Positions 9,063 through 42,030 of a stretch of DNA of 64,000 bases are shown one piece after another. Source of the stretch: Hymenobacter canadensis (GTDB taxonomy: Bacteria > Bacteroidota > Bacteroidia > Cytophagales > Hymenobacteraceae); assembly GCF_027359925.1 (NCBI RefSeq), contig NZ_CP114768.1, positions 248,001 through 312,000 of the forward strand. The letters are read 5' to 3'. The position numbers were made by a program, and so were the translations under genes. The notes beneath the pieces are model-generated. The model had not been told where the DNA came from. It did not search any database and saw only the letters and a program-made list of their open reading frames with translations. How positions within the stretch are numbered: the stretch's first letter is position 1; each line of letters begins with the position of its first letter.

Positions 9063-9110
9063 GCTCCTTCAAATGAACAGAGCGTTCACAGAGGCACCCT
9101 TTTCCTGAAC
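9063..9110 (-). repeat. Array repeat, long type (copy 1)
   Basis: First copy of the array repeat on the left. It reads GCTCCTTCAAATGAACAG, then AGCGTTCAC, then CACCCTTTTCCTGAAC. It is the reverse-complement form, as in the whole left arm, and closely matches the copy at 12048. Confidence 0.7.
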
Positions 9111-9233
9111 GCAAGTTCTGCTACGCCGACCAGCCAGGTGGATAAGGCCACCCGCACCTCGGTTCTGGCCTATTTTTCTTCTATATATTAGCCCGCCGGA
9201 AGGACTCCCTTTCTGCTTTTGCTGCCCCGCCTT

Positions 9234-9479
9234 ATGCCCCTGCTCCAGTTCTATGCTCATCTGTTGTTCCGGGCGGCCGCGCTGCTCGCGGCGGGGCTCG
9301 CCCTGGCCTGCCTCGCGCTCATCAGCGTGCTGGGTGGGGCCCTGCCGGGCGTGGAACTAAGCGAGCAAGTGGCCCGCGCGGCTACGGCGTTGCACCGCGA
9401 CGCTTGCCGGCTGCGGGCTTTGGCCCGGGCCCGTCAAGCCCCGGCGCCCACCGTTTCCGAGTCCGGCGACGCCAGATAA
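9234..9479 (+). CDS. Small membrane protein
   Basis: 81 residues from the ATG at 9234; a TTG at 9219 is an alternative start. A strong hydrophobic segment (ALLAAGLALACLALISVLGG) near the N-terminus is followed by an Ala/Arg-rich tail predicted to be helical and cytoplasmic. No family was recognised. It follows repeat copy 1 and is closed by a good hairpin terminator. Confidence 0.5.
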   Translation: MPLLQFYAHLLFRAAALLAAGLALACLALISVLGGALPGVELSEQVARAATALHRDACRLRALARARQAPAPTVSESGDAR

Positions 9480-9501
9480 GCCCCAGGGATTACCTCCCTC
9501 G

Positions 9502-9538
9502 AAAAGCCGCTGCACCTGCCGGGCCGTAGCGGCTTTTT
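9502..9538 (+). terminator. Rho-independent terminator
   Basis: AAAAGCCGCT (9502-9511) pairs with AGCGGCTTTT (9528-9537), with a 16-base loop and a short T-run. It lies 23 bases after the stop of the small membrane gene. Confidence 0.8.
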
Positions 9539-9743
9539 GGCGGGTATTTATTTTCATAAACTCCCCAAAATGAGGCGCTAGGGCCCGTTTATTACCAGCA
9601 AAAAGCTTGTTAGACTCCCCGTAGAGGCCAGCGCGAAGCTAGCCTTAGCGCGACCAGTCGGCTGACATAATCCTCCCTTGCTTGAACCACCGTTTGGCTG
9701 AAGGTAAGTTTAGCACCTCGCTTCTTCTGTCACCTCTGCGTTC

Positions 9744-10255
9744 ATGTTCTGGTTCCGACGTTTAGGTATTGTCCTTCTGCTTCTCCTTGCCGTGGGTAGG
9801 AGTGTGGTCGTGGCGCTCGATGGGGCTTGGGCGTTTAACCGGCCCTTGGACGAGCGCGCCGTGGCGGCGTTCTTTTGCCAACCGGGCCTGCGCCTACATC
9901 TGGTCGAGTCGCACAACGTGCTGGGCTTTGACCCGATGGAAACCCACGAGCTCTGGGTCTATGCCTCCACGGCCCCGGGCCAGCCCAGTCGGTTTTGGGA
10001 AAAGACAGCCTGGGGTGGGAGCTGACCGGCGGGGCGGTCCACGCCCTGGCGCGCAGCTTGGCCACGTCCCCGGCTTTGGACCGATGGCCCGGCAGCCGCC
10101 AGTTCGCGCGCCGCAAGTACTTGGCGTACGCGGGCAACGCCTACGCCACCTACTCGGACGGTGCGGGCGGGGCCTACCGCTACGTATAGGCACCGGCTGA
10201 GCAGCGGCTCTACGTCGTCGTTGACAGCCGCGGCGCGTTCTACATGGAGCCCTAG
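9744..10255 (+). pseudogene. Secreted protein gene broken by a frameshift and an in-frame stop
   Basis: The first part (from 9744) encodes a signal-anchor-like N-terminus (FRRLGIVLLLLLAVGRSVVV) and runs to QPSRFWEKTA, then stops. From about 9985 a second frame continues sensibly as ELTGGAVHALARSLATSPAL and KYLAYAGNAYATYSDGAGG. At 10187-10189 a TAG interrupts that frame, after which it goes on as APAEQRLYVVVDSRGAFYME to a TAG at 10253. One indel in the GGGAAAAG run and one nonsense change therefore separate three pieces of one protein of about 170 residues. No family was recognised. Confidence 0.6.
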
Positions 10256-10348
10256 CTTTTGGCCACCATAAGCTCAATTTTCGATAATGCTCGGAATGAC
10301 TTGCTTTTTCACTCGTTCACTTCCTAGGTAATTCCAACCCCACCACCT

Positions 10349-10807
10349 ATGCCAGACCAAGGCTACCCACCCGTCGGATTCTATTTCTCCCTTGGGTTCA
10401 GCGAGGTGAAAACCATGGCCGATGCCACCTTTCAGGAAGTTTCGGGCCTGTCGGCGGAGCGCGAAACCGAAACCATTAGCGAAGGCAGCCAGAACCTGTA
10501 CAAGTCCTCGATAACCACCGTAGCCAAGTACAGCAACCTCGTGCTGAAGCGCGGCCTGCTCATCGAAGGCTCGGCCCTCGCCGCTTGGGTGCGCAACACG
10601 ATGGGCTCGGACTTAACGGAGCCCATCAAGCCAAAGCAGGTGTACCTCAAGCTGCTAAATAATGAGGGTCAGCCGCTAGTCTTCTGGTCGTTCGAGAACG
10701 CTTGGCCAGTCAAGTGGAGCGTGTCCGACTTCAACAACCAGGACAGCACCATCGCTATCGAAACGTTGGAGCTGAGCTATACTAAGCTTCAGCAGCAGTG
10801 GGTGTAA
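10349..10807 (+). CDS. Contractile-injection tail-tube protein (T4 gp19-like)
   Basis: 152 residues. The pattern PPVGFYFSLGFSEVK, FQEVSGLSAERETE, YSNLVLKRGLL, LAAWVRNTMG and WSFENAWPVKWSVSDFNNQ then IAIETLELSYTKLQ is that of the tail-tube family shared by T4-like phages and extracellular contractile injection systems (Afp1/Pvc1 type). It would build the inner tube of a contractile particle. No sheath, baseplate, spike or ATPase gene is near. It lies inside the repeat array as a single-gene unit. A relative is at 58062-58700. Confidence 0.85.
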   Translation: MPDQGYPPVGFYFSLGFSEVKTMADATFQEVSGLSAERETETISEGSQNLYKSSITTVAKYSNLVLKRGLLIEGSALAAWVRNTMGSDLTEPIKPKQVYLKLLNNEGQPLVFWSFENAWPVKWSVSDFNNQDSTIAIETLELSYTKLQQQWV

Positions 10808-10888
10808 CGCGATGATTACGCCAAGCGCGTTTCCTTGCCTCAACGCTAATTACCGGCGCGGTACAGCTGCTGCGATGTGATCTGCGCA

Positions 10889-10925
10889 GGCTGTTTTTTC
10901 ATCGTCAATACCCTTTTCTTGAATC
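10889..10925 (-). repeat. Array repeat, degenerate (copy 2)
   Basis: GGCTGTTTTTTCATCG, then TACCCTTTTCTTGAAT. It aligns with the left-arm form GCTCGTTT...ACC(C/G)TTTTCTTGAAC. A weaker possible copy lies at 10288-10320. Confidence 0.5.
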
Positions 10926-10941
10926 CCTCCGAGGGTAGGCT

Positions 10942-11430
10942 TTACTTGATGGATTTCCCGTTCCGAAATGTCTGGACACTCTGCGGCTTTCCATCTTCTG
11001 CATACATGGTCCACGTGCCTTCGTATTCGTCATGCTGGAAGCCGCCTACCCCCCGCAGGTTGCCGTTCTCATACCAATAGCTGTGCGTGCCTTCGCGCTG
11101 CCCGTTTACGTAAGGCCCCACCCGCGCTTTTTGGCCATTACGATGCCAGTAAGTCCACTCGCCCGTCTCCTTGCCGCTTTGGAGCACTCCCTGTGCGTAA
11201 CGGCCTCCTGAGAGATAATAAATCGTTCGGAGTCCGTCAGTGGGAGGTGCAAAGACGAGGTACTTCGCACGTGATGCAGGCAAAGTGTTGACGTTGGCGA
11301 TAAAATCAGATTTACTGATTAGCGTGTCATGGATCACCACGTCCATGGCGTTTAAATCCATGTTCAGGGATTGGCTGAAGGAGAGGAAAGGGGTGAGTAG
11401 CGCTCCCACCAATAAAAATAGAGTTCGCAT
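10942..11430 (-). CDS. MORN/YwqK-like repeat protein, secreted
   Basis: 162 residues from the ATG at 11430; an in-frame ATG at 11469 adds 13 residues before the signal. The signal peptide is RTLFLLVGALLTPFLSFSQ. The C-terminal half has MORN-type repeats: GEWTYWHRNGQKARVGPYVN, GQREGTHSYWYENGNLRGVG and EYEGTWTMYAEDGKPQ. This is the layout of YwqK-family proteins, often annotated as antitoxin components; the role is not proved. The gene reads against the general left-arm direction, yet the flanking repeats keep their orientation. Confidence 0.65.
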   Translation of the reverse strand: MRTLFLLVGALLTPFLSFSQSLNMDLNAMDVVIHDTLISKSDFIANVNTLPASRAKYLVFAPPTDGLRTIYYLSGGRYAQGVLQSGKETGEWTYWHRNGQKARVGPYVNGQREGTHSYWYENGNLRGVGGFQHDEYEGTWTMYAEDGKPQSVQTFRNGKSIK

Positions 11431-11480
11431 AGCAAGGCAAAGACTGCAAATAAGCATGAATGATAGCACGAATCAATAAC

Positions 11481-11512
11481 GCTCGTTTCGCCGAATCACC
11501 GTTTGCGTGAAC
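11481..11512 (-). repeat. Array repeat, short type (copy 3)
   Basis: GCTCGTTTCGCCGAATC, then ACCGTTTGCGTGAAC. Its reverse complement is nearly identical to the right-arm copies at 25383, 30605 and 33086. Confidence 0.8.
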
Positions 11513-11537
11513 GAGACACTTCGTTCCAACCTGTTCC

Positions 11538-11990
11538 TCATTTTGGAAGCCAGGTGTATTTGTCCTTATTGAGCAACGCGTATCGCTGGCTTCCAACAAG
11601 TAGGTAGTCTGTTGCGGGCTTCTTTTCCACCAAGGAGCCCGTCGTACTGGCCCTGTATAAATGCTGGGTCACGCTAAACGTTAGGTGCTTTCCCAGGCTT
11701 GTTACGCGTATGCCTGGGCTGAAAACAAAAAAAGGTTCGAAGGATCTGTTGGCCAGCGCTATTTCATCGGGCTTTGTTGTTTCCAGCGCCACCACGAATT
11801 GGTACTTGTTAAGCTGGCATGCGGCGCAATATTTCTTTTCCTGCAGCACCCCCGTAAACGCAAGTGCGGCAAAGAATTCCTTGTGCGACGTGATGCGCTG
11901 TTGAGTGTCTGCGTTTACGCCCTGCGCAAACCGGAGATAACTACAGGAAGCCAGCAGGAGGGCCACCAGAGCGGGTACAACGTTTTGCAT
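11538..11990 (-). CDS. Small lipoprotein of unknown function
   Basis: 150 residues. The N-terminus VVPALVALLLASCSY has a lipobox with Cys16. The mature part has no recognised domain. It contains a YCAACQLNKYQF segment with two closely spaced cysteines, and beta-rich stretches such as KHLTFSVTQHLYRAST. It is a single gene between two repeats, read to the left. Confidence 0.6.
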   Translation of the reverse strand: MQNVVPALVALLLASCSYLRFAQGVNADTQQRITSHKEFFAALAFTGVLQEKKYCAACQLNKYQFVVALETTKPDEIALANRSFEPFFVFSPGIRVTSLGKHLTFSVTQHLYRASTTGSLVEKKPATDYLLVGSQRYALLNKDKYTWLPK

Positions 11991-12047
11991 GGATGCCGTT
12001 TACTTAGGGAATAGCTTTATCTAAGATTGACCTAAAGGTAGGCTTAC

Positions 12048-12097
12048 GCTCCTTCAACTGAACAGAGCGCGTTCACGGCAGTACCCTTTTCTTGAAC
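12048..12097 (-). repeat. Array repeat, long type (copy 4)
   Basis: GCTCCTTCAACTGAACAGAG, then CGCGTTCACGG, then CAGTACCCTTTTCTTGAAC. It contains the internal pair TGAAC/GTTCA. It closely matches copy 1 and the reverse complement of the copy at 31779. Confidence 0.8.
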
Positions 12098-12148
12098 AGT
12101 AAAGGGGAGGGGTCCACTCTAGGAAAAGTGGTAGCTTTCCCGCCCGTT

Positions 12149-12799
12149 ATGCTTCACCAACCTGCCCTGCCCACTGCTCAAACGCCTCGCGGGCTTCGGC
12201 TAACCTGCCTGCTGGGCTTGCTGGGGGCCCAGTTCCCCGGCTGGGCGCAAGAAGCCCCGACGCCCTTGCATGCCTTCTTGCAGCAGCACTACGACAGCAC
12301 CATCGTCTACCACGTCGGGTCCTCGTGGTACAACGCGCCGAACTATATCATCTTGGCCAAGCACCGGGGCGGGGTGGACGCCTTCACCTATGCCAACCCC
12401 TACCGGGACGGACTAGGCCACTACTACCCCGGCCAGCTCGTCCGCCACTTTAGCAAGGAGGACACCCGATTTCGGGCGACGCGGCCCGATACCAACCGCT
12501 ACCTGGTGCCCCGCGCCGGGGACCCAGCGGAGCTGCGGCGCGCCTGGCAGCAGCTGCACCCTACGCGGTTCTGGTCCGTACGCGGCGACGGGGAGCGGCC
12601 CGCTACACCGGCGTCCTGCTTCATCGACGACGGGCCCGAGCACGTGTTTTACCTGCTTGACAAACGCGCCATCCGGGTCGTCCGCTTTTACGCCCCGCAA
12701 GAGTTGCAAGACTGTGAGGATGCGAGGCAGGACCCGGGCCGAGCGCAGGCTTTGGCCACGATTCAAGTATTGCAAGCATTGATTCCGCGTGTACGATAA
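12149..12799 (+). CDS. Secreted protein of unknown function
   Basis: 216 residues. I use the ATG at 12149 because the longer frame to 12092 overlaps the repeat. A signal peptide (LTCLLGLLGAQFPGWAQ) precedes a mature part that starts LHAFLQQHYDSTIVYHVG and contains YNAPNYIILAKHRGG, FWSVRGDGERP and VFYLLDKRAIRVVRFY. No family was recognised. The stop is followed after 2 bases by repeat copy 5, the usual spacing in this arm. Confidence 0.6.
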   Translation: MLHQPALPTAQTPRGLRLTCLLGLLGAQFPGWAQEAPTPLHAFLQQHYDSTIVYHVGSSWYNAPNYIILAKHRGGVDAFTYANPYRDGLGHYYPGQLVRHFSKEDTRFRATRPDTNRYLVPRAGDPAELRRAWQQLHPTRFWSVRGDGERPATPASCFIDDGPEHVFYLLDKRAIRVVRFYAPQELQDCEDARQDPGRAQALATIQVLQALIPRVR

Positions 12800-12801
12800 A
12801 G

Positions 12802-12836
12802 GCTCGTTTTGGCGAATCCGACCCTTTCACTGAACT
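12802..12836 (-). repeat. Array repeat, short type (copy 5)
   Basis: GCTCGTTTTGGCGAATCCG, then ACCCTTTCACTGAAC, starting 2 bases after the upstream stop codon. Confidence 0.75.
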
Positions 12837-12931
12837 CTTATTCAAAAACGGGGCGAAAGCATTTTCTTGCGAAAGAACCCGCCCGCTTATGGCGAAATTA
12901 CCAGCATCCCTTCTCCAAAGAATACGATAAC

Positions 12932-13465
12932 GTGTCCAGTTCTAAAATCCTTGCTGTCTTGGTATCTTCTTTAGTCTCGCATACTGCTCACAGTCAATCC
13001 AAAGTAGGTATTGTGAAGATTAGCTCCGTTGATACGGTTATAAACAATAAGCCAATTCACTACGAGACCTTCTACAACCGATTTAATCATAAAAGGGGAA
13101 TCGTGCTAGGGCGCAGCAGGATTGAGTGTGAGATCGTTATCAAAGAAAAGACATTTGCCATCCTGCCCGGCAACAGAGATACCCGAAAATTGTATCTGCA
13201 TACAAATTTAACCCGCAACGATGTGGTCTTCAATTCCATGAATACGGAGAAGAACAAGGACGGCATATGGGTACATTATTCGGCTGCACATCGGGTTGAT
13301 TCAGTGGCGTGTTACGACGATCAGGGGCTACGCCTAGTGCTGCAATTCCGAAAGAATGGTTCGCCGAGAGTGATGCATCGCTATAAGAATGGCCAGCGAC
13401 AAGCCCTAGGGCCCTGGCTGTATGATAGAAGAGGCAGAGTTATGAATATCTCCCCAGATTTTTGA
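12932..13465 (+). CDS. Secreted protein, possible YwqK-type C-terminus
   Basis: 177 residues from a GTG at 12932. Longer starts in the same frame run through the repeat and lack a signal peptide. Here the N-terminus SKILAVLVSSLVSHTAHSQS is a good signal sequence. The mature part (GIVKISSVDTVINNKPIHYE ... GIWVHYSAAHRVDSVACYDD) ends with FRKNGSPRVMHRYKNGQRQA, which resembles a weak MORN repeat. The function is unknown. Base composition is lower in GC than the neighbours, which suggests a different origin for this unit. Confidence 0.55.
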   Translation: MSSSKILAVLVSSLVSHTAHSQSKVGIVKISSVDTVINNKPIHYETFYNRFNHKRGIVLGRSRIECEIVIKEKTFAILPGNRDTRKLYLHTNLTRNDVVFNSMNTEKNKDGIWVHYSAAHRVDSVACYDDQGLRLVLQFRKNGSPRVMHRYKNGQRQALGPWLYDRRGRVMNISPDF

Positions 13466-13482
13466 GGGGTAGTTCGTAAAAT

Positions 13483-13515
13483 GCCTCGTTTCGCTTTTTG
13501 GACCTTTTTGTAGAC
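13483..13515 (-). repeat. Array repeat, short type (copy 6)
   Basis: GCCTCGTTTCGCTTTTTGG, then ACCTTTTTGTAGAC, 17 bases after the upstream stop. Confidence 0.7.
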
Positions 13516-13583
13516 TTGCCTACCGTACATCACTCAGCCCTTTACTTCGGCCTGATGTCTTCCCCTCTTCGCCTCCGTCCCCA

Positions 13584-14330
13584 ATGTCCGCCGTCAGAAA
13601 GCTACCCGCCACTTCCGAAGACTGCCGCGTCGTGCTGACAGAAGAGGCCCTCGCGTACCTGAAGCAACAGGGCGTGCGCTTGGAAGAGGCCGAAGGGGTG
13701 ACCATCCCCAGTAAGTATGCCCAGGGGTTCGCGCTGGCCACCGGGGAAGTAGTGGTCGTGGAGAACGGGTGGCGCGCCGATGCCCCAGCCTTTATTTTCG
13801 CTACCGAGGCGGGCTTTGCCGCCTGCTGCCGTGCGGACCACTTTCCCGTGCCCCCGGCTGACGTGACGTGGCCCGAAGCCCACGCCCGGAACGTGCGGCG
13901 GTTCCTAACCCACCCGGCCGTGTACGCGGACCCGTTGCGAACTGCCTTGGGGGTAGCGGCCCCGTTTCGCACGCTGGCAGCGTGCGAAACCGCTTTTGCG
14001 CAGGTACTTCCCTATATCCGCCGGACGTCCGTGCCCTGGAAAACGCGCGAACCCGTGGCCTATGCCTTTGGCTTGGCTGCAGCCCAATTTTGCGTGGCCC
14101 ACTGGGGCCTGTCTTGCACGGTGCGCAAATGGTACGACCTCTACAATCCGTACTATCGGCCACACTTGAAGTTTGCCCCGGCGGGCGGACATGCGCATGT
14201 TACAGATGTTTTCAACACCGTGATTGCCATCTGCAGGTCTACTTCCAAGCCGAATTTTCCCACGCTCATGTGGTGGCTGACGGGTGTTTCTCCGGTGAAA
14301 CAGGCCACCGGTATGCCCACGGGGGAATAA
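13584..14330 (+). CDS. Hypothetical cytoplasmic protein
   Basis: 248 residues, no signal peptide or membrane segment. The N-terminal 100 residues (EDCRVVLTEEALAYLKQQGV, SKYAQGFALATGEVVVVENG) and a Trp/Tyr-rich C-terminal part (VAHWGLSCTVRKWYDLYNPY) give no known family. The size, soluble nature and single-gene unit are in keeping with immunity-like or unknown cassette cargo. This is not shown by the sequence. Confidence 0.55.
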   Translation: MSAVRKLPATSEDCRVVLTEEALAYLKQQGVRLEEAEGVTIPSKYAQGFALATGEVVVVENGWRADAPAFIFATEAGFAACCRADHFPVPPADVTWPEAHARNVRRFLTHPAVYADPLRTALGVAAPFRTLAACETAFAQVLPYIRRTSVPWKTREPVAYAFGLAAAQFCVAHWGLSCTVRKWYDLYNPYYRPHLKFAPAGGHAHVTDVFNTVIAICRSTSKPNFPTLMWWLTGVSPVKQATGMPTGE

Positions 14331-14334
14331 TACT

Positions 14335-14366
14335 CTGATTTGCCTCAAATACCGTTTCTCTGAACT
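14335..14366 (-). repeat. Array repeat, short type (copy 7)
   Basis: CTGATTTGCCTCAAATACCG, then TTTCTCTGAAC. Its reverse complement matches the right-arm copy at 34589, so this subtype occurs once in each arm. Confidence 0.75.
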
Positions 14367-14401
14367 TTCCTTTTATACCGCCGGCACGGAATGCAAGCCC
14401 A

Positions 14402-14803
14402 ATGATTCAACGGCTCTTTCATTACGCCTACTGCGGGGGCCGCCTGGTTGATAAATACCGCCCGCTCAATGGCGCACATCGAATCGTGAGCGTTTTCATT
14501 ACGTCACTGCTGACCTGCCTTTACTTCATCTTTCTGAGGCTGTTGTATGTTTTATCTGCGTTCAAGGTGCCGGAAGTTGCCTTGTTTGGAATGCTCGTCG
14601 TGCTGGTGGCGATTGGGTGGGGAGCGTTAAAAAAGTGGCAGTTCCGCCAGCTCCACGTATCGGAACGCATTGTAAACAATGGTTTCAGCAAGCGAAAGGT
14701 GAAAGCATGTGGTTGGCTATCGGTTGCCGTTTCCCTCTTCAGCATCTGGGCAGTCTTGCTGACAGGCATATTCACCATTGAGAATTACATAGCCTGGCCA
14801 TAA
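14402..14803 (+). CDS. Small integral membrane protein
   Basis: 133 residues with three likely membrane segments: VFITSLLTCLYFIFLRLLYV, VALFGMLVVLVAIGWGAL and WLSVAVSLFSIWAVLLTGIF. A basic loop (KKWQFRQLHVSERIV ... KRKVKA) lies between the second and third. No family was recognised. It is the only gene of its unit. Confidence 0.6.
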   Translation: MIQRLFHYAYCGGRLVDKYRPLNGAHRIVSVFITSLLTCLYFIFLRLLYVLSAFKVPEVALFGMLVVLVAIGWGALKKWQFRQLHVSERIVNNGFSKRKVKACGWLSVAVSLFSIWAVLLTGIFTIENYIAWP

Positions 14804-14822
14804 CCAATTGATTCTATTCATT

Positions 14823-14869
14823 GGCTCCTGTTTTTGAACGGGACGTGTTCACCGACCCACCGTTTTTTT
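14823..14869 (-). repeat. Array repeat, long type (copy 8)
   Basis: GGCTCCTGTTTTTGAAC, then GGGACGTGTTCACCG, then ACCCACCGTTTTTTT. The next start codon is 11 bases away, the closest in the left arm. Confidence 0.65.
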
Positions 14870-14879
14870 ATACTATTCT

Positions 14880-15329
14880 ATGGGCTATAGTCTGCGCGCC
14901 TTCATTGGTTCAACCGATGCCTTACTCCCGTTGGCCGCTGCTTACCCAGAAGCGGTGCGCGTGCCGCTCACCCAGGGTCTTTGCCTGATTCCGCTTACGG
15001 GCGAGCTCTACGATGGCATCGTGAACGGGGTGAGTTCGGCACACATCGCGCCCTTCTCCTTCATGCCTACACAGCTGGAGCAGCAGGTGCGCTCGCACAT
15101 CGGTCTCGCGGCCGTCGGCTATGTCGAAGCCGACTATTTCGGTGGCCACGGCCAGCAAGCGGCGCTGTGCTGGCAGAATGGGCAGCGGCAGGTATGGGGG
15201 CCAAGCCAGGGCGCCATTAATGCCCTACTCGCACAACTAGGCGCCGTAACCACACGGGGGCACCAGGACGCCTTTGAGGCGGTAGGTCTACGCCAACACC
15301 GCCACACCGAAGACTGGTTACCTGAATAA
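14880..15329 (+). CDS. Hypothetical protein
   Basis: 149 residues from ATG 14880. Cytoplasmic, with conserved-looking GYSLRAFIGSTDALLPLAAA, LTQGLCLIPLTGELYD, VGYVEADYFGGHGQQAALCW and WGPSQGAINALLAQLG. The family is not recognised, but the even composition and clear start support a real gene. It shares its unit with the next gene, 34 bases downstream. Both products have an EADYF/EADYL segment. Confidence 0.6.
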   Translation: MGYSLRAFIGSTDALLPLAAAYPEAVRVPLTQGLCLIPLTGELYDGIVNGVSSAHIAPFSFMPTQLEQQVRSHIGLAAVGYVEADYFGGHGQQAALCWQNGQRQVWGPSQGAINALLAQLGAVTTRGHQDAFEAVGLRQHRHTEDWLPE

Positions 15330-15363
15330 CCGTTTGCCTATACCTGCTCTACCTTTCGCCCAC

Positions 15364-15738
15364 ATGGTTACGCACCACCTTGTCACCTTCCCGGCTCACG
15401 AGCGCCCTTCATTCGCGGCAGTTGAGCGGGCAGTGCAGGCCCTCTCGGGCCTGGCGGTGCACTACACGCCCGAACGCATGCACTTGGTATGTCCCGCCCT
15501 GCGACGGGAAGTAGCCCTGTATGAGGAAGAAGGGAACAAGTACTGCATCACCACCTTTGTCGTCGAAGCCGACTACCTGCTGGTAACGACCATTGTCGCT
15601 TTGCAACGCTTAGGGGGCACCTTTTCCGCCAGCTTACCCCCGTGGGCCGGTCAAGCTTGGGGGCCACTCAATAAGTGGGTCTACCGGTTACGGCGAAACC
15701 GCATCTGGTATCCTTATCCCGATAAACCCCTCACATAG
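15364..15738 (+). CDS. Hypothetical protein, partner of the preceding gene
   Basis: 124 residues from the ATG at 15364; a TTG at 15334 is an alternative. It contains VVEADYLLVTTIVALQRLGG, which echoes VGYVEADYFGG of the upstream product, and WAGQAWGPLNKWVYRLRRNR. The two genes form the clearest two-gene unit of the array and may be co-transcribed as an interacting pair. No known family. Confidence 0.55.
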   Translation: MVTHHLVTFPAHERPSFAAVERAVQALSGLAVHYTPERMHLVCPALRREVALYEEEGNKYCITTFVVEADYLLVTTIVALQRLGGTFSASLPPWAGQAWGPLNKWVYRLRRNRIWYPYPDKPLT

Positions 15739-15753
15739 CAGGTTTTCTACTAA

Positions 15754-15786
15754 GCTCGTTTTCCTGTTCGGACTGTTTGAGCGAAC
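15754..15786 (-). repeat. Array repeat, short type (copy 9)
   Basis: GCTCGTTTTCCTGTTCGG, then ACTGTTTGAGCGAAC, 15 bases after the upstream stop. Confidence 0.75.
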
Positions 15787-15806
15787 ACCCCGTTGTTGTT
15801 TAGGGA

Positions 15807-16163
15807 ATGATTTCGACTGTTTTCTTCGCCTGTGTCTTTTCAGGAGCTGAATCACCTTCGGATAAAAAGAAGCTCTTGAAAGAGAAGTTACCACAGCTTG
15901 TCGAGATGACGGCTGCCTTCAAACGCTTCTACGGCAACAACGAGTTTGCCATCCTACTACAGCGGGTTAAGTCTGAGATATTCATCGACAACATCGTCCC
16001 TAAACTTGTCGAGAAGATCTGGCAGCTCACCAAGTATAACTCGGTGCCTGGTGAGGGGAAGGATGAGCCACTCGTTTCGAGCATCATCATGTCCGTTCTC
16101 AGCGACGACAAAATCAATGGCGTGGTAGATGTGACCGACTGCTCACTCAAACAGGCTGCTTAG
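15807..16163 (+). CDS. Small hypothetical protein
   Basis: 118 residues. A short hydrophobic N-terminus (ISTVFFACVFSGA) may be a signal sequence, or the start may lie further in. The rest is helical and charged (DKKKLLKEKLPQLVEMTAAF ... VPKLVEKIWQLTKYNSV) and ends SSIIMSVLSDDKINGVVDV. No family was recognised. It converges on a lipoprotein gene of the opposite strand within the same unit. Confidence 0.5.
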   Translation: MISTVFFACVFSGAESPSDKKKLLKEKLPQLVEMTAAFKRFYGNNEFAILLQRVKSEIFIDNIVPKLVEKIWQLTKYNSVPGEGKDEPLVSSIIMSVLSDDKINGVVDVTDCSLKQAA

Positions 16164-16181
16164 GGGAAGACCTGCTAGCAC

Positions 16182-34578: not shown

Positions 34579-34588
34579 GCACTAATGA

Positions 34589-34666: not shown

Positions 34667-34671
34667 GGCGT

Positions 34672-35082
34672 ATGAAATATAACGTCCTTGTCCCGTTGGG
34701 CATCCTGCTGTTGACAAGCTGCGATAAACGTACGCCGGCACCACCGACCCTAGTCGGCGTGTGGAATCTGGAATCCATCCACTACCTGACCGATTACCAA
34801 GACGGCAGTCCCACAAGAGAACGGACATATGTGGCCCCCAGCGGCAGCGAGCAGCAGGAATTTACCGCCGATGGCCGAGTGTTTGTTCAACTCCCGGGAG
34901 CCGCCACGGGCTCATTTCACCCGTACCGCTTCGACGGCACCACCGTCGTGGTTTCCTTAAGCGCCTTTGACCTCACGTGGACTGTGCAGGAATTAAAAGC
35001 GCAGCGCTTGGTCTACAAGGAGATTTACGAAATACCCGGTAGTTCCGGTCAGTTAACGCAGACATTTACCTACAGCCGATAA
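34672..35082 (+). CDS. Lipoprotein, lipocalin-like
   Basis: 136 residues. The signal YNVLVPLGILLLTSC has a lipobox with Cys17. The mature part starts at a typical lipocalin-like LVGVWNLESIHYLTDYQDG, followed by SEQQEFTADGRVFVQLPG, RFDGTTVVVSLSAFDLTWTV and a C-terminal strand TQTFTYSR. This is the small Bacteroidota lipocalin-family pattern GxWxL...FxxDGxV. No partner gene. Confidence 0.7.
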   Translation: MKYNVLVPLGILLLTSCDKRTPAPPTLVGVWNLESIHYLTDYQDGSPTRERTYVAPSGSEQQEFTADGRVFVQLPGAATGSFHPYRFDGTTVVVSLSAFDLTWTVQELKAQRLVYKEIYEIPGSSGQLTQTFTYSR

Positions 35083-35140
35083 AGACAGACGAAGCCATTC
35101 AGAAACGGCTTACAACCGACGGGTTAGACAAGTTGATAAC

Positions 35141-35174
35141 GTCTACTAAAACGGTCCGAATACCAAAAGGAGCG
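35141..35174 (+). repeat. Array repeat, short type (copy 28)
   Basis: GTCTACTAAAACGGTCCG, then AATACCAAAAGGAGCG. Confidence 0.85.
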
Positions 35175-35186
35175 TTATTTTATGAG

Positions 35187-35714
35187 ATGAAGCAACTGCT
35201 TTTTGTCTGGATGTGTCTGGCGTGGTGCTGGGATGCCGTGGCCCAATCCGCTGGCCCGTTGCCCTTGCGGCCCGCGTTCATCAATGTGAATGCGGCGGCC
35301 CACGGCCTCCCGGGGTATGACACGGTGGCCCGCCCCGGGGTACAGCAAATTCCCGGGCGCCTGGCCTACGTGGGACCGTACCGGGTGTGGGTGTCGGGGG
35401 CCGGCGAGGTGGCCACGCATGCCGTGGCGGACCGGAATGCGCCGCACTTCGTGTATTCCCCCAGTAGCGCGTTTGGCTTTGCGGACTTTGCACGCTGCTC
35501 CAGCGTGCATGGCAACAAACTCGTGTTCGTCAGCATCACCGACGGCTACTTGCAACCCCGGCGGTACCGAGTGGTGGAGATGTCGCTGGACCGCCAGGCC
35601 GTGGTCCGCCATTACCGCAGCCGCTTGCCCGTCTGCGCCACCTACTCCGCGGACGGCACCCACATCGTGGTGGAAGCGCAGGGCCGCCAACAGAGGGTGC
35701 CTTCCGCATATTAG
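35187..35714 (+). CDS. Secreted protein of unknown function
   Basis: 175 residues from ATG 35187; the frame back to 35133 crosses the repeat. The signal KQLLFVWMCLAWCWDAVAQ is followed by ARPGVQQIPGRLAYVGPYRV, GEVATHAVADRNAPHFVYSP, FADFARCSSVHGNKLVFVSI and RYRVVEMSLDRQAVVRHYRS. It is probably periplasmic and beta-rich. No family was recognised. Confidence 0.55.
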   Translation: MKQLLFVWMCLAWCWDAVAQSAGPLPLRPAFINVNAAAHGLPGYDTVARPGVQQIPGRLAYVGPYRVWVSGAGEVATHAVADRNAPHFVYSPSSAFGFADFARCSSVHGNKLVFVSITDGYLQPRRYRVVEMSLDRQAVVRHYRSRLPVCATYSADGTHIVVEAQGRQQRVPSAY

Positions 35715-35775
35715 ATGCCCTTCGCCAAACCCATGCGGCGACCCGATTACTCGAGTTCCGCTTCCTGCCCATTGA

Positions 35776-35810
35776 GTCTACTTTAACGGTCCGAAGCTAA
35801 ACGGTCCCGG
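35776..35810 (+). repeat. Array repeat, short type (copy 29)
   Basis: GTCTACTTTAACGGTCCGAA, then GCTAAACGGTCCCGG. It includes a second ACGGTC. Confidence 0.75.
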
Positions 35811-35825
35811 TCCCGGTACCGTTGC

Positions 35826-36536
35826 TTATGGGAAGAGCGCGATACGGTGTTCAATCAACTCGTACAGGCGCTGCACGATGCGCGGGCGCATCGCCTCAAA
35901 CGCAGCACTGGCCGCCTCAAATTCCGGCGTAGGGCTGTAGCTTCCCGTGCGGGCCAGTTGGCGGCGACGGGGCTCAGCTTGCACCTGTTCGAGCGCGGCT
36001 ACAGACAGCAGGGCTTGGCTGACCTGTGGGAGCGCCAACAGCTGGTCGACGTACGCGAGCACCGGCTCGAGGTAAAAATACACGGCTGCTTCCAAGCTTT
36101 CCCAGTCTTCGTAGGCCAGCCACTCGCTCACCACCAGCACACAGGCTACGGGGGGCGGCAACAACTGGGCGGCCTCGAAGTCGAGCCAGTACGTGCGGGG
36201 CACTTGGTGCGCCTGCTCCACCGCGTCGGCCACCCGGCGCACGGCATCGTCGGGTACGGGATACCGCCGCAGGATGCGCTGCGTGAGCGAGTGTCGGGCC
36301 TGCTCCAGCTGCTGCAAGGTGCGCGGTACATCATAGCCCGCTCGTTCCAACGCGTGGCGCGCCGCGGCATCGGGCACCTGTGCTTGGTGGGCCACCAGCC
36401 GCGTGAGTTCCTGCTGAAACAGGGATTCGGCGGCTGCCACATCGCCGTTGGTTTGCTGTAACAGCACCAGCCCGTGGCGCACGCCAATGGGGGTGCGTTG
36501 GCGCAGGGCGTGCAATTCCTCTTGGTAAGCTCCCAT
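35826..36536 (-). CDS. Hypothetical protein with an EF-Ts/UBA-like N-terminus
   Basis: 236 residues. The first 45 residues (ALRQRTPIGVRHGLVLLQQT then NGDVAAAESLF) look like the UBA/TS-N three-helix motif of elongation factor Ts, and a second similar helix pair may follow (AARHALERAGYDVPRTLQQL). The remaining part (YWLDFEAAQLLPPPVACVLV, EDWESLEAAVYFYLEPVLAY) is alpha-beta and of unknown family. A fusion of a UBA-like module with an unknown domain is unusual for bacteria. Confidence 0.5.
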   Translation of the reverse strand: MGAYQEELHALRQRTPIGVRHGLVLLQQTNGDVAAAESLFQQELTRLVAHQAQVPDAAARHALERAGYDVPRTLQQLEQARHSLTQRILRRYPVPDDAVRRVADAVEQAHQVPRTYWLDFEAAQLLPPPVACVLVVSEWLAYEDWESLEAAVYFYLEPVLAYVDQLLALPQVSQALLSVAALEQVQAEPRRRQLARTGSYSPTPEFEAASAAFEAMRPRIVQRLYELIEHRIALFP

Positions 36537-36569
36537 AGTAGTGCTAGCCCGCTAAGTTTAAGATAGGCT

Positions 36570-36604
36570 GTTCAATAAAACGGTCCGAACCTCAGAAGCG
36601 AAAG
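36570..36604 (+). repeat. Array repeat, short type (copy 30)
   Basis: GTTCAATAAAACGGTCCGAA, then CCTCAGAAGCGAAAG. Confidence 0.85.
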
Positions 36605-36658
36605 AACGGATGGACTGGAAGCGTAATGGCACCCGGTTGGACTTCTGACCGGCTACTG

Positions 36659-37666
36659 TCAGCTGTTGCCTAAGCGTTCTTGCTCCTCTCGTACCAACTG
36701 CTGCAGCTCTTCTTCCGACGGCAGGTTCATCTGGTATTTGCTCACAAACAGTTGCTCGGCCATGCCCGTTGTCGCATAGCGCACGAGAGTGTCGTTCTTC
36801 TGGGCACACAGAATGAGCCCCACCGGCGGATTGTCGCCTTCGGTCATCTCCTGCTCCCGGTAGTAGTTCAGGTACACGTTCATCTGCCCCGCATCGGCAT
36901 GGCTGAACGCCCCGATCTTCAGGTCCACCAGCATGTGGCACTTCAGAATGCGGTGATAAAAGACTAAGTCAATGAAGTAGTGCGCGTTGTCGAAGGTGAT
37001 GCGCTTTTGCCGGGCCTCAAAACAGAAGCCCCGACCCAGTTCTACCAGAAACGTCTGCAGGTGCGCAATAATCGCCGCCTCCAGGTCGCTCTCGCTGTAG
37101 CTGGCCCGTTCCTCCAGACCTAAAAATTCCAACACGTAGGGGTTTTTCACCACATCGGCCACCGCCAGCGGCTGCGTGCCGGCGTGGCCGGCCAGCACCG
37201 CCGCCTTATCGGTAGAGAGCCCCGTGCGCTCGTATAGCGCCGACTCAATGGCGCGCTTCAACTCCCGCACCGACCAGCTGTTTTAACCGCCTGCACCTCA
37301 TAGAACGCCCGTTGCACCGGCCGGTCCAGGGCCAGCAACTCCAGAAAATGTGAAAAGCTCAGCCGGTTCAGCAGCAACTCCGGTGCCAGGCCCGGCAGGG
37401 CGTGCGGGCCGCTGGCCAGGGCCGACGCGGCCGTTGGGAAGGGCTTGGACGCATTCAATAGACCAGCTTGTTGCAATTCCGCAGACACGGTCTGCAAAAT
37501 CAGGGGGTAGGCCCGGTAAAACTCACGGCACTGGTAAAGTCGCCGTTCTGCGAGCCCTTTGACGCCGTGCAGCTGCCGCGCCAGCTCCGACAGCAGCCGC
37601 CCGCTGCGTTTGCGCGTGCAGCTGCCCAATCTGTTCTGCTAGCAGCGAAAGCGTGCGTTCTTCCAT
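36659..37666 (-). pseudogene. DUF1016 (YhcG-type) PDDEXK nuclease, double frameshift
   Basis: The C-terminal piece (36659-37270) has the DUF1016 nuclease core: ADVVKNPYVLEFLGL, ESDLEAAIIAHLQTFLVELG, RGFCFEARQKRITF, YFIDLVFYHRILKCHMLVDL and MNVYLNYYREQEM. The middle piece (about 37258-37610) gives KGLAERRLYQCREFYRAYPL and FSHFLELLALDRPVQRAFYE in another frame, and the start (ATG 37666, ERTLSLLAEQIGQLHA) is in a third. Two indels, near 37270 and 37610, break the gene. The family is a putative endonuclease linked to mobile DNA. Its N-terminus is shorter than usual. Confidence 0.75.
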
Positions 37667-37758
37667 CGGGACCAAGTTACGCTTGTCCAGTGAGTCGACC
37701 GCAAGGCATGCACCTACAAAAAAGCGGATTATCTAGCGAAAAGTTGGCCCTGGCTATT

Positions 37759-37790
37759 GTTCACTTAAAGGGTCCGAACCTATACCAGGG
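37759..37790 (+). repeat. Array repeat, short type (copy 31)
   Basis: GTTCACTTAAAGGGTCCGAA, then CCTATACCAGGG, one base before the next stop codon. Confidence 0.75.
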
Positions 37791-37791
37791 C

Positions 37792-38256
37792 CTAATCTGC
37801 CCCATAATCGTTGTTGAGACAACGCAAGCTTTTCACCGACACCTCGACCAACTGGCCCTGTGCATTCACCCCCCACGCGCGCCGCGGATAGGGCAGGTAG
37901 CGCTTATCAGCGGCCGGCACCCACTTATACAAAACAAAGTACTGGCGGGGCTTGCCCGTAGCCGTCGAGCAGTAGGTGATGTGCACCTCGCGCCCAGGCA
38001 CCGCTGTGCGCACATGCACCGTGTCGATAATCTCAAACCGGGCCCGGTCCGTGCGGGCGGACAGGCGCTTTTCGAAGGCGAGCACGAGCTGGCCATTGCG
38101 GCATTCGGCCTGCGTCTTGGCGTAGCACGCGAGTGAATTGCCACTTTCTTCGAGCAGGGCGCCCTGGCAGGAGAAATAACCCGGCAGCACGATGCGCGGC
38201 GGGCGGGCTGCCCCGGAGTTGAGGTAGAATAGGATCAGCAGAAACAGCACGCGCAT
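37792..38256 (-). CDS. Secreted protein of unknown function
   Basis: 154 residues. A short signal sequence (RVLFLLILFYLNSGAA) precedes RIVLPGYFSCQGALLEESGN, CYAKTQAECRNGQLVLAFEK, REVHITYCSTATGKPRQYFV and PYPRRAWGVNAQGQLVEVSV. Four to five cysteines suggest disulphide bonds in the periplasm. No family recognised. Confidence 0.55.
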   Translation of the reverse strand: MRVLFLLILFYLNSGAARPPRIVLPGYFSCQGALLEESGNSLACYAKTQAECRNGQLVLAFEKRLSARTDRARFEIIDTVHVRTAVPGREVHITYCSTATGKPRQYFVLYKWVPAADKRYLPYPRRAWGVNAQGQLVEVSVKSLRCLNNDYGAD

Positions 38257-38343
38257 GGGATGATCTGATAAAAGGGAGCGTACAAGACGTCGTTGTACAA
38301 GGTAAGCGCCCGAATATAAAGCCTCGCGATCATCCTCCCCTTA

Positions 38344-38380
38344 GTTCAAATTAGCAGTTGGAATCGCTAAAACGAGGGTC
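38344..38380 (+). repeat. Array repeat, short type (copy 32)
   Basis: GTTCAAATTAGCAGTTGG, then AATCGCTAAAACGAGGGTC. The core is altered (AGCAGTT in place of AACGGTC). Confidence 0.65.
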
Positions 38381-38492
38381 TTCCTTCGGGTGCGCTGGTT
38401 TGGAACCGCCTTGGGCGAGAACAATCCGCTCGGAGTAACGCTGGAGGCATATCGTCTGCTTGAGCACGCTTCTCTATTCCACCGCTAGTTCT

Positions 38493-40889
38493 TCATTCCA
38501 CTACTAGGCGCAGGGTGCGCGTGGCACTTTTCGTGGTGGCCCGAAGCAGGTACAAGCCGGGAGTGAGGTCTGTTAGTACGATTTCAGGAGAGGCAGCGGT
38601 GTGCACCAAGCGGCCCTGCGTATCAAACACCTGCACCTCGACCTCTTTTGTCGGCAGGCCCCGCAATTGTACTCGGCGCTGGGCAGGATTAGGAACGAGT
38701 TGCCAGCTACCCGCGGCGGTAGTGGCCACCGTTGTCAAGGGCGTGCCGCCCGAAGGAATGTAGAGCGGCGTGGGATTGGCTACGGGCTGCGCTAACTGGC
38801 CACTGCTGTTCCAGCCCCAGGCCCACAGCAGGTTGTCAGCACGAATGGCCAGCATGTGGCTTCCCCCCGTGGCCACCCGCTGCCAGGTGGCCCCGGTGCC
38901 GACCTGCACGGGGACATTCTGCGTGGCCGTGGTGCCGTTGCCGAGTTGGCCAACGTTGTTGTTGCCCCAGGTCCAGAGCGTGCCATCGGTCCGCAGGGCG
39001 GCCGACACATAGCCGGCCGCCTGCACGCTTTGCCAGGTCGATGACGTCCCAATCTGCAAGGGGGCCTGCTGGGAAGTAAACGTTCGGTTGCCCAATTGTC
39101 CGAAGCTGTTATCGCCCCAGGCCCAGAGCGTGCCGTTGGCGCGAACGGCCAGGGTGAATTGGGAGCCCACGGCGACGTTGCGCCAAGTAGTGGCCGTCCC
39201 GATTTGCACGGGGTTGGATTGGTCGGCCGTGGTGCCGTTGCCCAGTTGGCCGTCGGAGTTGCTGCCCCAGGCCCAGAGCGTGCCGTCGGTGCGAACGGCC
39301 ATAGTATGGCTCCCGCCTGCCCCTGCGCTTTGCCAGTTGGTGTCCGTGCCGACCTGCATCGGCGCATTTTGGGCAGGCAACGCACCGATACCCAGCTGGC
39401 CAGAGTTGTTGCTTCCCCAGGCCCAGAGCGTGCCGTCGGTGCGCAGGGCTACCACGTGGCGGCCACCGGCGCTCACACGCTGCCAGGTGCTGGCTGTTCC
39501 AATCTGGACGGGGGCGCGCTGATTCTCCCTCGTTCCGTTTCCGAGCTGGCCTTCCGTGTTCTCGCCCCATCCCCACAGGGTGCCGTCGGCGCGAATGGCC
39601 AGGGTGAAGCGGCCTCCCGCGCTCACGCTTTGCCAGGTAGCGGCGCCGATCGGTACAGTTGCGTCGCGGCTGGTGGTGGTGCCGTCGCCGAGTTGGCCGT
39701 ACGCATTATTCCCCCAAGCCCAGAGGCTCCCATCGGCCCGGATGCCAACGGAGTGATTGTGGCCGGTGGCGACGGCGCGCCAGGTGCTGGGCGGCGCCAC
39801 CTGAACGGGCGATGCCTGCAAGCCGGCGTTGTTGCCGAGCTGGCTACTCGTGTTATCGCCCCAGGCCCAGAAGGTATCATCCCGGCGCAACGCGACGGTG
39901 TGCGTCTCACCGGCATCCACGGCCTTCCAACCCCCTAAGCCGCCGACTTGCGTAGGCGCCAGGCGGCGGGCGGTGGTGCCGTCGCCAAGCTGGCCATACG
40001 TGTTATCGCCCCAGGCCCAGAGCGTGCCGTCGGTGCGGATGGCCACGGTGTAGCTGGCCCCGGCGGTGGCGCTTTGCCAGGTCGTGGCCGAGCCGATTTG
40101 CACGGGAACGGCTAGCGGGTTGGTGGTGCCGTTTCCTGCTTGACCGCTTCCATTACTTCCCCAGGCCCAGAGGGTGCCATCGGTTCGGATGGCCACAGCA
40201 GAGCCATTGCCTACGGATACCTGTCGCCAGGTCGTGGCCGTGCCGATTTGCACCGGCGTAGCGGCCGTGCTGCCGTTTAGGAGCTGGTAACTGCCCCAGG
40301 CCCACAAGGTGCCATCGGTGCGAATCGCGACGGTGTTCTGGGCACCCGCGGCAACGCTTTGCCAGGTGGCCGTGCCCACCTGCACGGGGGCATCCTGCGG
40401 GGCTGTGATGCCGTTGCCGAGCTGGCCATACGTGTTATTGCCCCAGGCCCAGAGCGTGCCATCGGCCCGGATGGCTTCCACGTGTCTCTCGCCGGCCGAC
40501 ACACTTTGCCACACATCGGTCCCTACTTGTGCGGGCTGGGATCGGCTGCCGCCAGTGCTGGCCGCGCCCAATTGACCGTTGTCGTTGCCGCCCCAGGTCC
40601 ACAGCGTGCCGTCGGTGCGCAAGGCGACCGTAAAACTTTGGCCCGCTGCCACCGACAGCCAGTTTGCATCGAATCCCACCTTTTCTGGCGCCGCATGGTT
40701 GGCGTATGACCCATCGCCCAGTTGGCCGGAGGTATTGGCCCCCCACGTCCACAAGGTCCCGTCGGGGTGAATGGAAGCCGTGTGCGAACCACCCGCGGCA
40801 ATGAGTTGTGGCTGGTTTTGAGCCTGGGCCGTTAGTGCAGCAGCCCACAGGCTAAGCACAGCCCATAGAAGACGCGTAATGTTCGACAT
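38493..40889 (-). CDS. Secreted RCC1-repeat protein with T9SS sorting domain
   Basis: 798 residues from ATG 40889; the frame extends to 40964 but the signal peptide (ITRLLWAVLSLWAAALTAQA) starts at 40889. Fourteen repeats of about 50 residues follow, each with RTDGTLWAWGDN-like and GQLGDGT-like segments, which fits two seven-bladed RCC1-type propellers. The C-terminus (VPNPAQRRVQLRGLPTKEVE ... LTPGLYLLRATT) is a T9SS sorting domain. It is probably surface-displayed and binds an unknown ligand. A closely related but frameshifted gene is at 51448-53926. Confidence 0.88.
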   Translation of the reverse strand: MSNITRLLWAVLSLWAAALTAQAQNQPQLIAAGGSHTASIHPDGTLWTWGANTSGQLGDGSYANHAAPEKVGFDANWLSVAAGQSFTVALRTDGTLWTWGGNDNGQLGAASTGGSRSQPAQVGTDVWQSVSAGERHVEAIRADGTLWAWGNNTYGQLGNGITAPQDAPVQVGTATWQSVAAGAQNTVAIRTDGTLWAWGSYQLLNGSTAATPVQIGTATTWRQVSVGNGSAVAIRTDGTLWAWGSNGSGQAGNGTTNPLAVPVQIGSATTWQSATAGASYTVAIRTDGTLWAWGDNTYGQLGDGTTARRLAPTQVGGLGGWKAVDAGETHTVALRRDDTFWAWGDNTSSQLGNNAGLQASPVQVAPPSTWRAVATGHNHSVGIRADGSLWAWGNNAYGQLGDGTTTSRDATVPIGAATWQSVSAGGRFTLAIRADGTLWGWGENTEGQLGNGTRENQRAPVQIGTASTWQRVSAGGRHVVALRTDGTLWAWGSNNSGQLGIGALPAQNAPMQVGTDTNWQSAGAGGSHTMAVRTDGTLWAWGSNSDGQLGNGTTADQSNPVQIGTATTWRNVAVGSQFTLAVRANGTLWAWGDNSFGQLGNRTFTSQQAPLQIGTSSTWQSVQAAGYVSAALRTDGTLWTWGNNNVGQLGNGTTATQNVPVQVGTGATWQRVATGGSHMLAIRADNLLWAWGWNSSGQLAQPVANPTPLYIPSGGTPLTTVATTAAGSWQLVPNPAQRRVQLRGLPTKEVEVQVFDTQGRLVHTAASPEIVLTDLTPGLYLLRATTKSATRTLRLVVE

Positions 40890-41146
40890 ATAAGGGGATG
40901 GGAAACGTAGAAAACTAGACGAAGTCAAACGCCGGGGGAGCAATATGATTGCCGGCCAAGACAAATATACCGGCTCCCTCTAACCACCAGCCCTCCGCGT
41001 TGCCGCAGTTCGCTGGTAGAGCGCCGCCAGCCCCTGCTCCTCAGGACTTGCTGCCTGCCAGGGTTAAACTTCTTTCTCATTGCCGCCCGCTCGTTGCAGC
41101 CCGAAGCCATGCTGTTTCAACGGGGCTACTGGTCAGTGGCAGGGTA

Positions 41147-41196
41147 GTTCATTTACACGGTACTGCCCTAAACACGATCTGTTTAAAAACAGGCGG
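41147..41196 (+). repeat. Array repeat, long type (copy 33)
   Basis: GTTCATTTACACGGTACTG, then CCCTAAACACGATCTG, then TTTAAAAACAGGCGG. Confidence 0.7.
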
Positions 41197-41211
41197 CATT
41201 CTAAACTCCTT

Positions 41212-41919
41212 TCAGGCTCTCGCTTCTTTAGCGCTAAGGTGGGCTTGCAGGGTTAAGTTGAGTAAACCGCCTACCACCAAAATAGCTCCGGCGACAAACG
41301 GGAAGCCTGCTCCAACCAAATCGGCTAGGTCGGCGGACCACAGAAAGGGATAACAGAACAGCATCGCCGCGATGCCCACGGCCATTATCCCGTAGCTGCC
41401 CAGCCAGCTCAGGCGTGAGTGTATAGTAGACGGGCGGGCGAGCTTCAGTGCTTGGTAGCGACTAAACAAGTGGCTGCGCAGCTGCTGCAGGGAGTGGTGC
41501 TGACAGTCCTCAATGGTCAGGGCAGCGAGCGGCAAACAGCGTCGTCCGGCGTGGTAGTCTTGCCCAAACAAGCGCTAGTGCTGCGGCAAGAGCAGCAGCC
41601 CAAACAGAAAAATCAGCATGCTGGGCAGCGTCCAGTTGCCGTTGCCCAGCATGAAGGCTTGCATCCTAATTTCGCCTACCGGCTCTAATTCGTACGCCAG
41701 CACCACGTGTTTCAAATCGTGGCTTTCAAAGCCAGGCACCAACGTTAACTCCCGGGCCAGCAAGCACGCCCCCAGCGCGTGCCCAACCGTTCCATCGGGC
41801 AGTTGGCTCAAAGCGGTTACCTGGCGGTGGTAGCGCGTCATGTCGTGGCACTGCTCCAGACACCACACCGACAGGAAAAAAGCGTGGCGAATGAGCTGCT
41901 CGGGGACGGAATACTTCAT
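41212..41919 (-). pseudogene. COQ4-like membrane protein gene with in-frame amber stop
   Basis: From ATG 41919 the frame encodes EQLIRHAFFLSVWCLEQC and GHALGACLLARELTLVPGFE followed by SHDLKHVVLAYELEPVGE, which fits the HDxxHx11E metal-binding motif of COQ4-type proteins. A hydrophobic stretch (LPSMLIFLFGLLLLP) ends at TAG 41575-41577. The same frame then continues for 121 codons (LFGQDYHAGRRCLPLAALTI, two more membrane segments, ending LSAKEARA). The shared frame suggests one protein of about 235 residues broken by a single stop. Its role may be in quinone or lipid metabolism; this is inferred from the motif only. Confidence 0.6.
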
Positions 41920-41986
41920 AGGGAGCCAATGTCTCGTTTGAACACAATCTAGCACCGATTAAGCCGTCAGGCATTACTGTATCGCC

Positions 41987-42030
41987 TCTCTACAAAAACG
42001 GCGGTACAAGGAAGGCCGAGAAAGGAGCAC
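41987..42030 (+). repeat. Array repeat (copy 34, last of right arm)
   Basis: TCTCTACAAAAACGGCGG, then TACAAGGAAGGCC, then GAGAAAGGAGCAC. This is the last clear copy. Confidence 0.7.

Follow-up and report, generated by a model that had tools for sequence, protein, structure and literature searches.

A candidate integron-like cassette array with a small serine recombinase at its hub in Hymenobacter

What are the repeats that lie between the small genes at positions 9063..42030 of this DNA, and could a recombinase be using them to collect those genes? The window, meaning the whole stretch of 64,000 nucleotides that was analysed, belongs to a 378-kb contig (C2), one of four contigs in a 5.09-Mb Hymenobacter-type genome. 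A preliminary description had counted about 34 copies of the repeat there, with an orientation that stays fixed in each arm even where genes flip, and had proposed a new cassette system other than an integron. Using a weight matrix for the 18-nt core GTTCANNNAAACGGTNNN, 31 strong sites (>16 bits) were located in the window, from 9093 to 41147, and weaker or gapped copies near 13484, 15326, 15769, 38343 and 41988 bring the total to 33-36, in agreement with the earlier count. At >9.5 bits the window contains 57 matches, compared with 10-16 in simulated sequence. The 31 strong sites divide by strand without exception: the 11 at 9093-20581 are all minus and the 20 at 24498-41147 all plus; weak matches of mixed strand, such as those at 21003 (plus, 14.4 bits, left half) and 60419 (minus, outside the array), were excluded from this split.

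Minus-strand sites thus occupy 9.1-20.6 kb and plus-strand sites 24.5-42 kb, and gene strands are mixed. The left arm (9110..20566) consists of small, mostly single-gene cassettes on either strand. Its sites, all on the minus strand, were placed by the weight matrix at 9062..9110 (long type), 9672..9703, 10890..10924, 11481..11512, 12047..12097 (long type), 12802..12835, 14333..14365, 14822..14873 (long type), 16689..16721, 17145..17177 and 20566..20598, the last being the arm's strong site closest to the hub. To these are added a copy with a 1-nt deletion recognized from the sequence (13484..13515), a weak site (15326..15343, 13.7 bits) and one with a weaker core (15754..15786, 15.9 bits). 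The right arm (24525..41987) is built similarly and includes genes for a SUKH-family protein and an ADP-ribosylglycohydrolase. Its plus-strand sites begin with the near-palindromic copy closest to the hub (24498..24524) and continue, again by weight matrix, at 25030..25080 (long type), 25381..25412, 26036..26050 (the left part of a site that is split by an insertion sequence, IS, and resumes at 27670), 28343..28375, 29196..29240, 30209..30241, 30605..30636, 31046..31079, 31446..31477, 31778..31828 and 32531..32581 (both long type), 33086..33117, 33888..33919, 34589..34620, 35141..35173, 35776..35810, 36570..36609, 37759..37790 and 41147..41197 (long type). A degenerate copy at 38343..38379 was recognized by eye only, and a weak site (41988..42028, 11.5 bits) marks the right end.

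The orientation of the sites does not follow that of the genes. Of the 25 scored cassettes in the window, 11 have their main ORF on the same strand as the site and 14 on the opposite strand, as the preliminary description had indicated from the gene flips. Cassettes were then defined as the intervals of 200-2500 bp that separate successive sites of >16 bits on one strand, which gave 506 cassettes (median 652 bp) in 24 genomes; 191 have their main ORF on the strand of the site, 231 on the opposite strand and 84 were unscored. Adjacent sites less than 3 kb apart share their orientation in 520 cases and differ in 18. A polarity imposed by the replication strand was ruled out, as both arrays on the 378-kb contig switch from minus to plus.

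Short and long types of the repeat, as described earlier, both exist, but each is in fact a tandem pair of motifs, namely GTTYANNNAAASGGT followed ~17 or 34 nt later by a second copy ending NNNAAASGAGS, and it is this spacing that makes a site short or long. The double nature of the sites and the serine recombinase at the hub had both been overlooked. Among 658 sites in 1.70 Mb of DNA from 27 genomes, the consensus is GTTYA at positions 1-5, AAA at 9-11, C or G at 12 and GGT at 13-15, the last at 0.97-0.99. The right half of array sites is a poor match with variable spacing, and the borders of the hub have only a single simple copy, GTTYANNNAAASGAGS. Folding of both strands, also proposed earlier, covered five places and nine strands and thus few sites: neither of the two short sites folded gave a stable hairpin, so that they lend no support to attC-like folding, and one of two long sites folds as a hairpin (z -2.3 and -2.1). 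The window has no Rfam match to a known RNA element.

Scoring of 150 of 1393 candidates with a sequence-only model from 19 sites gave this genome at least 67 matches at E<=1. At least 66 of them are on three small contigs (378, 143 and 39 kb), presumed from their size to be plasmids, and the copies are thus not scattered genome-wide. The remaining, borderline match is the sole one on the 4.5-Mb contig among those scored (C1:1227983, E 0.84); its neighbours are a further serine recombinase, ~1.6 kb away (C1:1229572), and a tyrosine recombinase (C1:1230676). The small contigs hold four arrays, namely that of the window, C2:148-187 kb, C3:57-85 kb and one running across the ends of C4, on which every site is on one strand. 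Searching relatives with the profile yielded matches at E<=0.05 in at least 55 of 200 family genomes, at least 51 of these in the same genus, counts that are lower bounds as 35 candidates were scored per genome. Arrays are not limited to plasmids, since they are present in the single-contig genomes G096, G137 and G176.

A serine recombinase gene (21347..21961, plus strand) lies at the hub between the two arms and would account for them. Its 204-aa product, of the small resolvase/invertase type, has a resolvase catalytic domain with the serine motif (PF00239, 148.8 bits), and its closest solved relatives are the Gin DNA-invertase (161 bits) and gamma-delta resolvase (101 bits). An ATP-binding/HATPase-type gene 3' of it (22324..23620, plus strand) contains an in-frame stop near 22502. 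Genes of the Fic family are repeatedly found in or next to hubs (19426-20547 in the window), and in several genomes one lies directly 3' of the recombinase. In Hymenobacter sp. 5317J-9 the recombinase gene (NZ_CP095052.1:4730-5429) contains an in-frame TAG and is absent from the listed features of the plasmid record.

Copies of the enzyme at least 86% identical occur at 20 loci in 16 of the 200 family genomes. The model finds sites in 14 of these 16 genomes (Fisher p=2e-4 within 116 same-genus genomes), and the weight matrix finds them in the remaining two, G056 and G170. Around 18 of the 20 loci (G158:C68 and G152:C12 were left out), 144 sites lie within 12 kb, of which 136 are directed away from the recombinase gene, independently of its own strand, which varies between hubs. 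Nine named loci at >=85% are also outward, with two inward exceptions. The 86% level is not a sharp boundary, since two hubs with a 75-80% enzyme (G188C8 and G134C40) bear outward arrays too; three others in that range have none. Eight Hymenobacter relatives with a 73-80% enzyme have two sites altogether, and other relatives have 18 sites in 836 kb.

A small serine recombinase is expected to have its crossover site upstream of its own gene, and this is what we find. In the window a simple, hub-type half-site, GTTTAAGAAAGGGAGC (21195..21210, minus strand), begins 136 nt upstream of the recombinase ATG, and in 17 of 18 hubs the half-site begins 135-137 nt upstream of the start codon. Alignment of the 18 hubs shows conservation only from the simple half-site inwards, with variable DNA beyond it, and conserved palindromes such as GAGTTTANGAAACTC lie between half-site and gene. 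Candidate accessory sites in the window are the palindrome GAGTTTAAGAAACTC (21273..21287), GTTCACGAAACTGCG (21302..21316) and the palindrome GAGTTTCGTAAACTC (21326..21340), which may alternatively be an operator. An inverted simple site with a conserved flank is found downstream in seven of the 18 hubs.

Enzyme relatives below 85% identity number 71, many from Pseudomonas, Xanthomonas, Legionella and methanotrophs; 47 were used and 24 left out, and removal of seven duplicates left 40 distinct regions. In 26 of the 40, and in 22 of the 32 outside Hymenobacter, there is a complete palindrome made of two half-sites of this kind around two bases, centred ~126-144 nt upstream of the gene, compared with 1 of 940 shuffled regions and 10 of 940 random windows from the same loci. 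Four Hymenobacter loci with a 73-77% enzyme and a complete palindrome (L111, L113, L115 and L117) have one site in total in their flanks, as expected of hubs that never acquired cassettes. In array-bearing hubs, variable DNA has taken the place of one half of the palindrome.

Based on these sequence comparisons, we think it probable that a small serine recombinase operates the array as an integron-like cassette system, with the enzyme's crossover half-site bounding the cassettes. The hub would comprise the recombinase gene, half of its own crossover site ~136 nt upstream and candidate accessory sites in between, and in some hubs the site recurs, inverted, at the opposite border. The half-site GTTYANNNAAASG, with a two-base centre (GT or AG) after it, would have been copied to the boundaries of hundreds of small cassettes, and recombination by the enzyme would connect one site's left half with another's right half. 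With directly oriented sites the result could be excision or insertion of a cassette; with inverted sites the hub could be flipped together with cassettes, which would then pass from one arm to the other. Either kind of event would preserve the outward polarity of all sites. Arrays that have no recombinase gene may be served in trans, or may be inactive like CALINs.

Does the enzyme exchange cassettes, flip the hub together with its arms, or do both? The array might behave as a shufflon, in which a Gin/Hin-like invertase flips the hub and cassettes and never inserts or excises, with copies on different replicons arising by homologous recombination or plasmid fusion. Gin is the closest solved relative, inverted simple sites bound some hubs (seven of 18 downstream, with a conserved flank), and inversion would both keep the outward polarity and account for a recombinase strand that differs among hubs. 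Inversion by itself, however, cannot copy or import units, and the 506 cassettes include 46 groups of at least two, giving 56 pairs at other places. Twenty-five of these pairs are within one genome, in separate places or on separate contigs; the other 31 are between genomes, those between species without conserved neighbours. The absence of conserved neighbours (0 of 56 pairs) comes from an automated count that misses one two-cassette block visible by eye, C2w 260049-261504 vs C3 78175-79630, which is 99.4% identical and extends across a site into part of the following unit. One inter-site stretch, C2:155166-156258 vs C3:74390-75482, is 99.9% identical over 1093 bp at unrelated places. We consider inversion alone possible but rather unlikely, and movement of single units by the hub recombinase, in some cases perhaps between replicons, the better reading.

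The ends of the shared stretches lie inside the site, as expected if cassettes recur as discrete units, and this supports the earlier proposal of a new, non-integron cassette system, as do the related arrays across Hymenobacter and the lack of an integron integrase above its cut-off. Homology ends at GGT. In 34 pairs with shared DNA upstream only, identity runs through position 15 and drops to baseline at 16; in 28 pairs with shared DNA downstream only, identity at positions 6-8 is no higher than baseline. Some downstream-sharing pairs agree only from the second motif on, so that either motif seems able to serve as a crossover point. Among the upstream-sharing pairs, agreement at positions 6-8 and 12 is only 65-68%, lower than a clean two-base crossover would give. 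These positions differ in about one third of pairs with near-identical upstream DNA, as if recombination had rewritten them, and the attempt to map the crossover to a single base failed on the same variation.

Several observations weaken the assignment of the reaction to the hub enzyme. The preliminary description had suggested a search for a recombinase always near the arrays, and the outcome is divided: the serine recombinase is present at the hub in the window, but it is missing from the strand switch of two of this genome's four arrays (C2:148-187 kb and C3:57-85 kb). A copy at >=86% is likewise absent from 37 of the 51 same-genus genomes that are site-positive, a total that is itself a lower bound. 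G096 bears an array, yet a search with the hub protein at E<=1e-40 gave nothing there, and an array centre in G136 (G136:C11:825076-835654) has a protein-kinase-like gene and one for a plasmid-type tyrosine recombinase of 319 aa in place of the serine recombinase. No single protein is common to the 11 array centres compared; only the serine recombinase recurred, in two of them. Further points against the hub enzyme are the poor and variably spaced right half of array sites, the 14 of 40 relatives with no good complete site, the GT and AG centres, which should not recombine together, the 65-68% agreement at positions 6-8 and 12, and G056, where two sites point outward and three inward. In addition, resolvases usually resolve and do not insert.

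Could a tyrosine recombinase, either host XerC/XerD or a plasmid-borne enzyme, move the cassettes instead, with the serine recombinase a mere bystander? The array sites are loosely like two-armed sites with TRAAC-like outer ends, and the rewriting of positions 6-12 could fit a longer overlap. Six such enzymes are encoded in this genome, one each on C2 and C3, one sits in the G136 array centre, and rAID systems, according to the accessible part of their description (PMC12247911), employ one. Nevertheless, no PF00589 match was found in the window, and the nearest on the contig (C2:349758) is ~60 kb past the array. The plasmid-type enzyme is present in 105 of 200 genomes and shows no association with the sites within the genus (45 of 51 site-positive vs 54 of 65 negative genomes, p=0.60, site-positives being a lower bound), which ruled it out as the driver, and G096, G137 and G169 have sites without it. 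One dif-like pattern, with up to two mismatches, had six matches genome-wide vs four for a control, none of them at array sites. Two of the six are near arrays, C2:181734 in the centre of one and C3:85011 at the end of another. A tyrosine recombinase would also leave the polarity around hubs and the complete palindromes of the relatives unexplained, and we judge this explanation improbable.

The repeats could also be promoters, terminators or REP-like elements in arrays that grow by ordinary repeat-mediated recombination, which would suit their intergenic position and the partly unexplained rewriting within sites, but this is very hard to reconcile with a strand independent of the genes, breakpoints at one position, a polarity set by the hub, targeting by an IS and the lack of Rfam matches in the window. 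The IS concerned is of one type, with ends CGTGGCTGTTGCAGAA, and in nine of 12 listed end-pairs (two of the 12 share an end) it adjoins an array site, although array sites make up <1% of the DNA. The copy in the window (26051..27669, plus strand) encodes a 497-aa DDE transposase and lies in the middle of an array site, and the central GT is duplicated around it, as around every copy checked. Some ISs are known to target attC sites, and the IS at array sites resembles these.

Integrons are the textbook cassette platform, based on one tyrosine recombinase family and on single-stranded hairpin sites. Similar to integrons and CALINs, the array is a row of small, mostly single-gene and mostly uncharacterised cassettes with a site of fixed orientation, and its units recur singly. 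In contrast to them, it has a serine recombinase hub, two arms and genes on either strand, the folded short sites have no attC hairpin, and no IntI-type tyrosine integrase was found in the whole genome, the best TIGR02249 match being 81.4 bits with a cut-off of 265; the earlier statement that IntI is missing is thus upheld. It is the enzyme, together with site folding as tested, that sets the array apart from integrons.

In the dif (pdif) modules of Acinetobacter plasmids, genes are flanked by a site-specific recombination site, a dif-like site on which host XerC/XerD act. Plasmid gene modules with recombination sites at their boundaries are a shared feature, but the array sites miss the dif-like pattern tried, and because of this mismatch we do not regard the array as a dif module. 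Tn3-type resolvase/res systems and Gin/Hin/Mpi inversion systems share with it the enzyme family, a crossover site upstream of the gene and candidate accessory sites; they act at one or few sites, whereas here tens of sites bound independent cassettes.

Also from Bacteroidota are rAID, with a tyrosine recombinase and co-oriented genes (PMC12247911), and the polyimmunity loci of Bacteroidales/Bacteroidetes, which are rows of short genes (PMC3482391). As far as the accessible parts of these papers go, both resemble the array in being rows of short genes with intergenic motifs in Bacteroidota, with some immunity-like cargo (SUKH, Imm11, Barstar). The array differs from rAID, to the same extent, in its serine recombinase, its mixed gene strands (191 same vs 231 opposite, so rAID-type co-orientation does not apply) and its sampled cargo, most of which is not recognisably immunity; enzyme class and gene orientation are our grounds for separating the two. 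No earlier description of a serine-recombinase cassette array was found in the accessible parts of the open-licence literature.

The cargo had been described as diverse and mostly single-gene, as in integrons, and wider sampling bears this out. Twelve of 40 ORFs in the window are above the cut-off for a Pfam family. A sample of 140 cassette ORFs, taken from 401 mapped references with no more than 18 per genome and no IS-bearing cassettes, represents 54 Pfam families at E<=0.001; SUKH-1 is the commonest, in four ORFs, and Fic, SUKH_6, Imm11 and DUF1493 follow with two each. This spread does not support an immunity role for all cargo; immunity-like proteins are a minority, and PADLOC matches are few. 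The cassettes may nonetheless benefit the cells that carry them.

That the hub enzyme belongs to another class than the integron enzyme suggests that this gene-collecting system, though integron-like, evolved separately. With somewhat less assurance than for the role of the recombinase itself, we think it likely that the arrays represent a second, independently evolved integron-like platform, with a resolvase hub, two outward arms and double-stranded exchange between replicons and species. If this is true, gene-collecting arrays would have arisen more than once in bacteria, a serine recombinase acting on short double-stranded sites would offer a new toolkit for site-specific recombination, and a reservoir of uncharacterised small genes in Bacteroidota would be opened.
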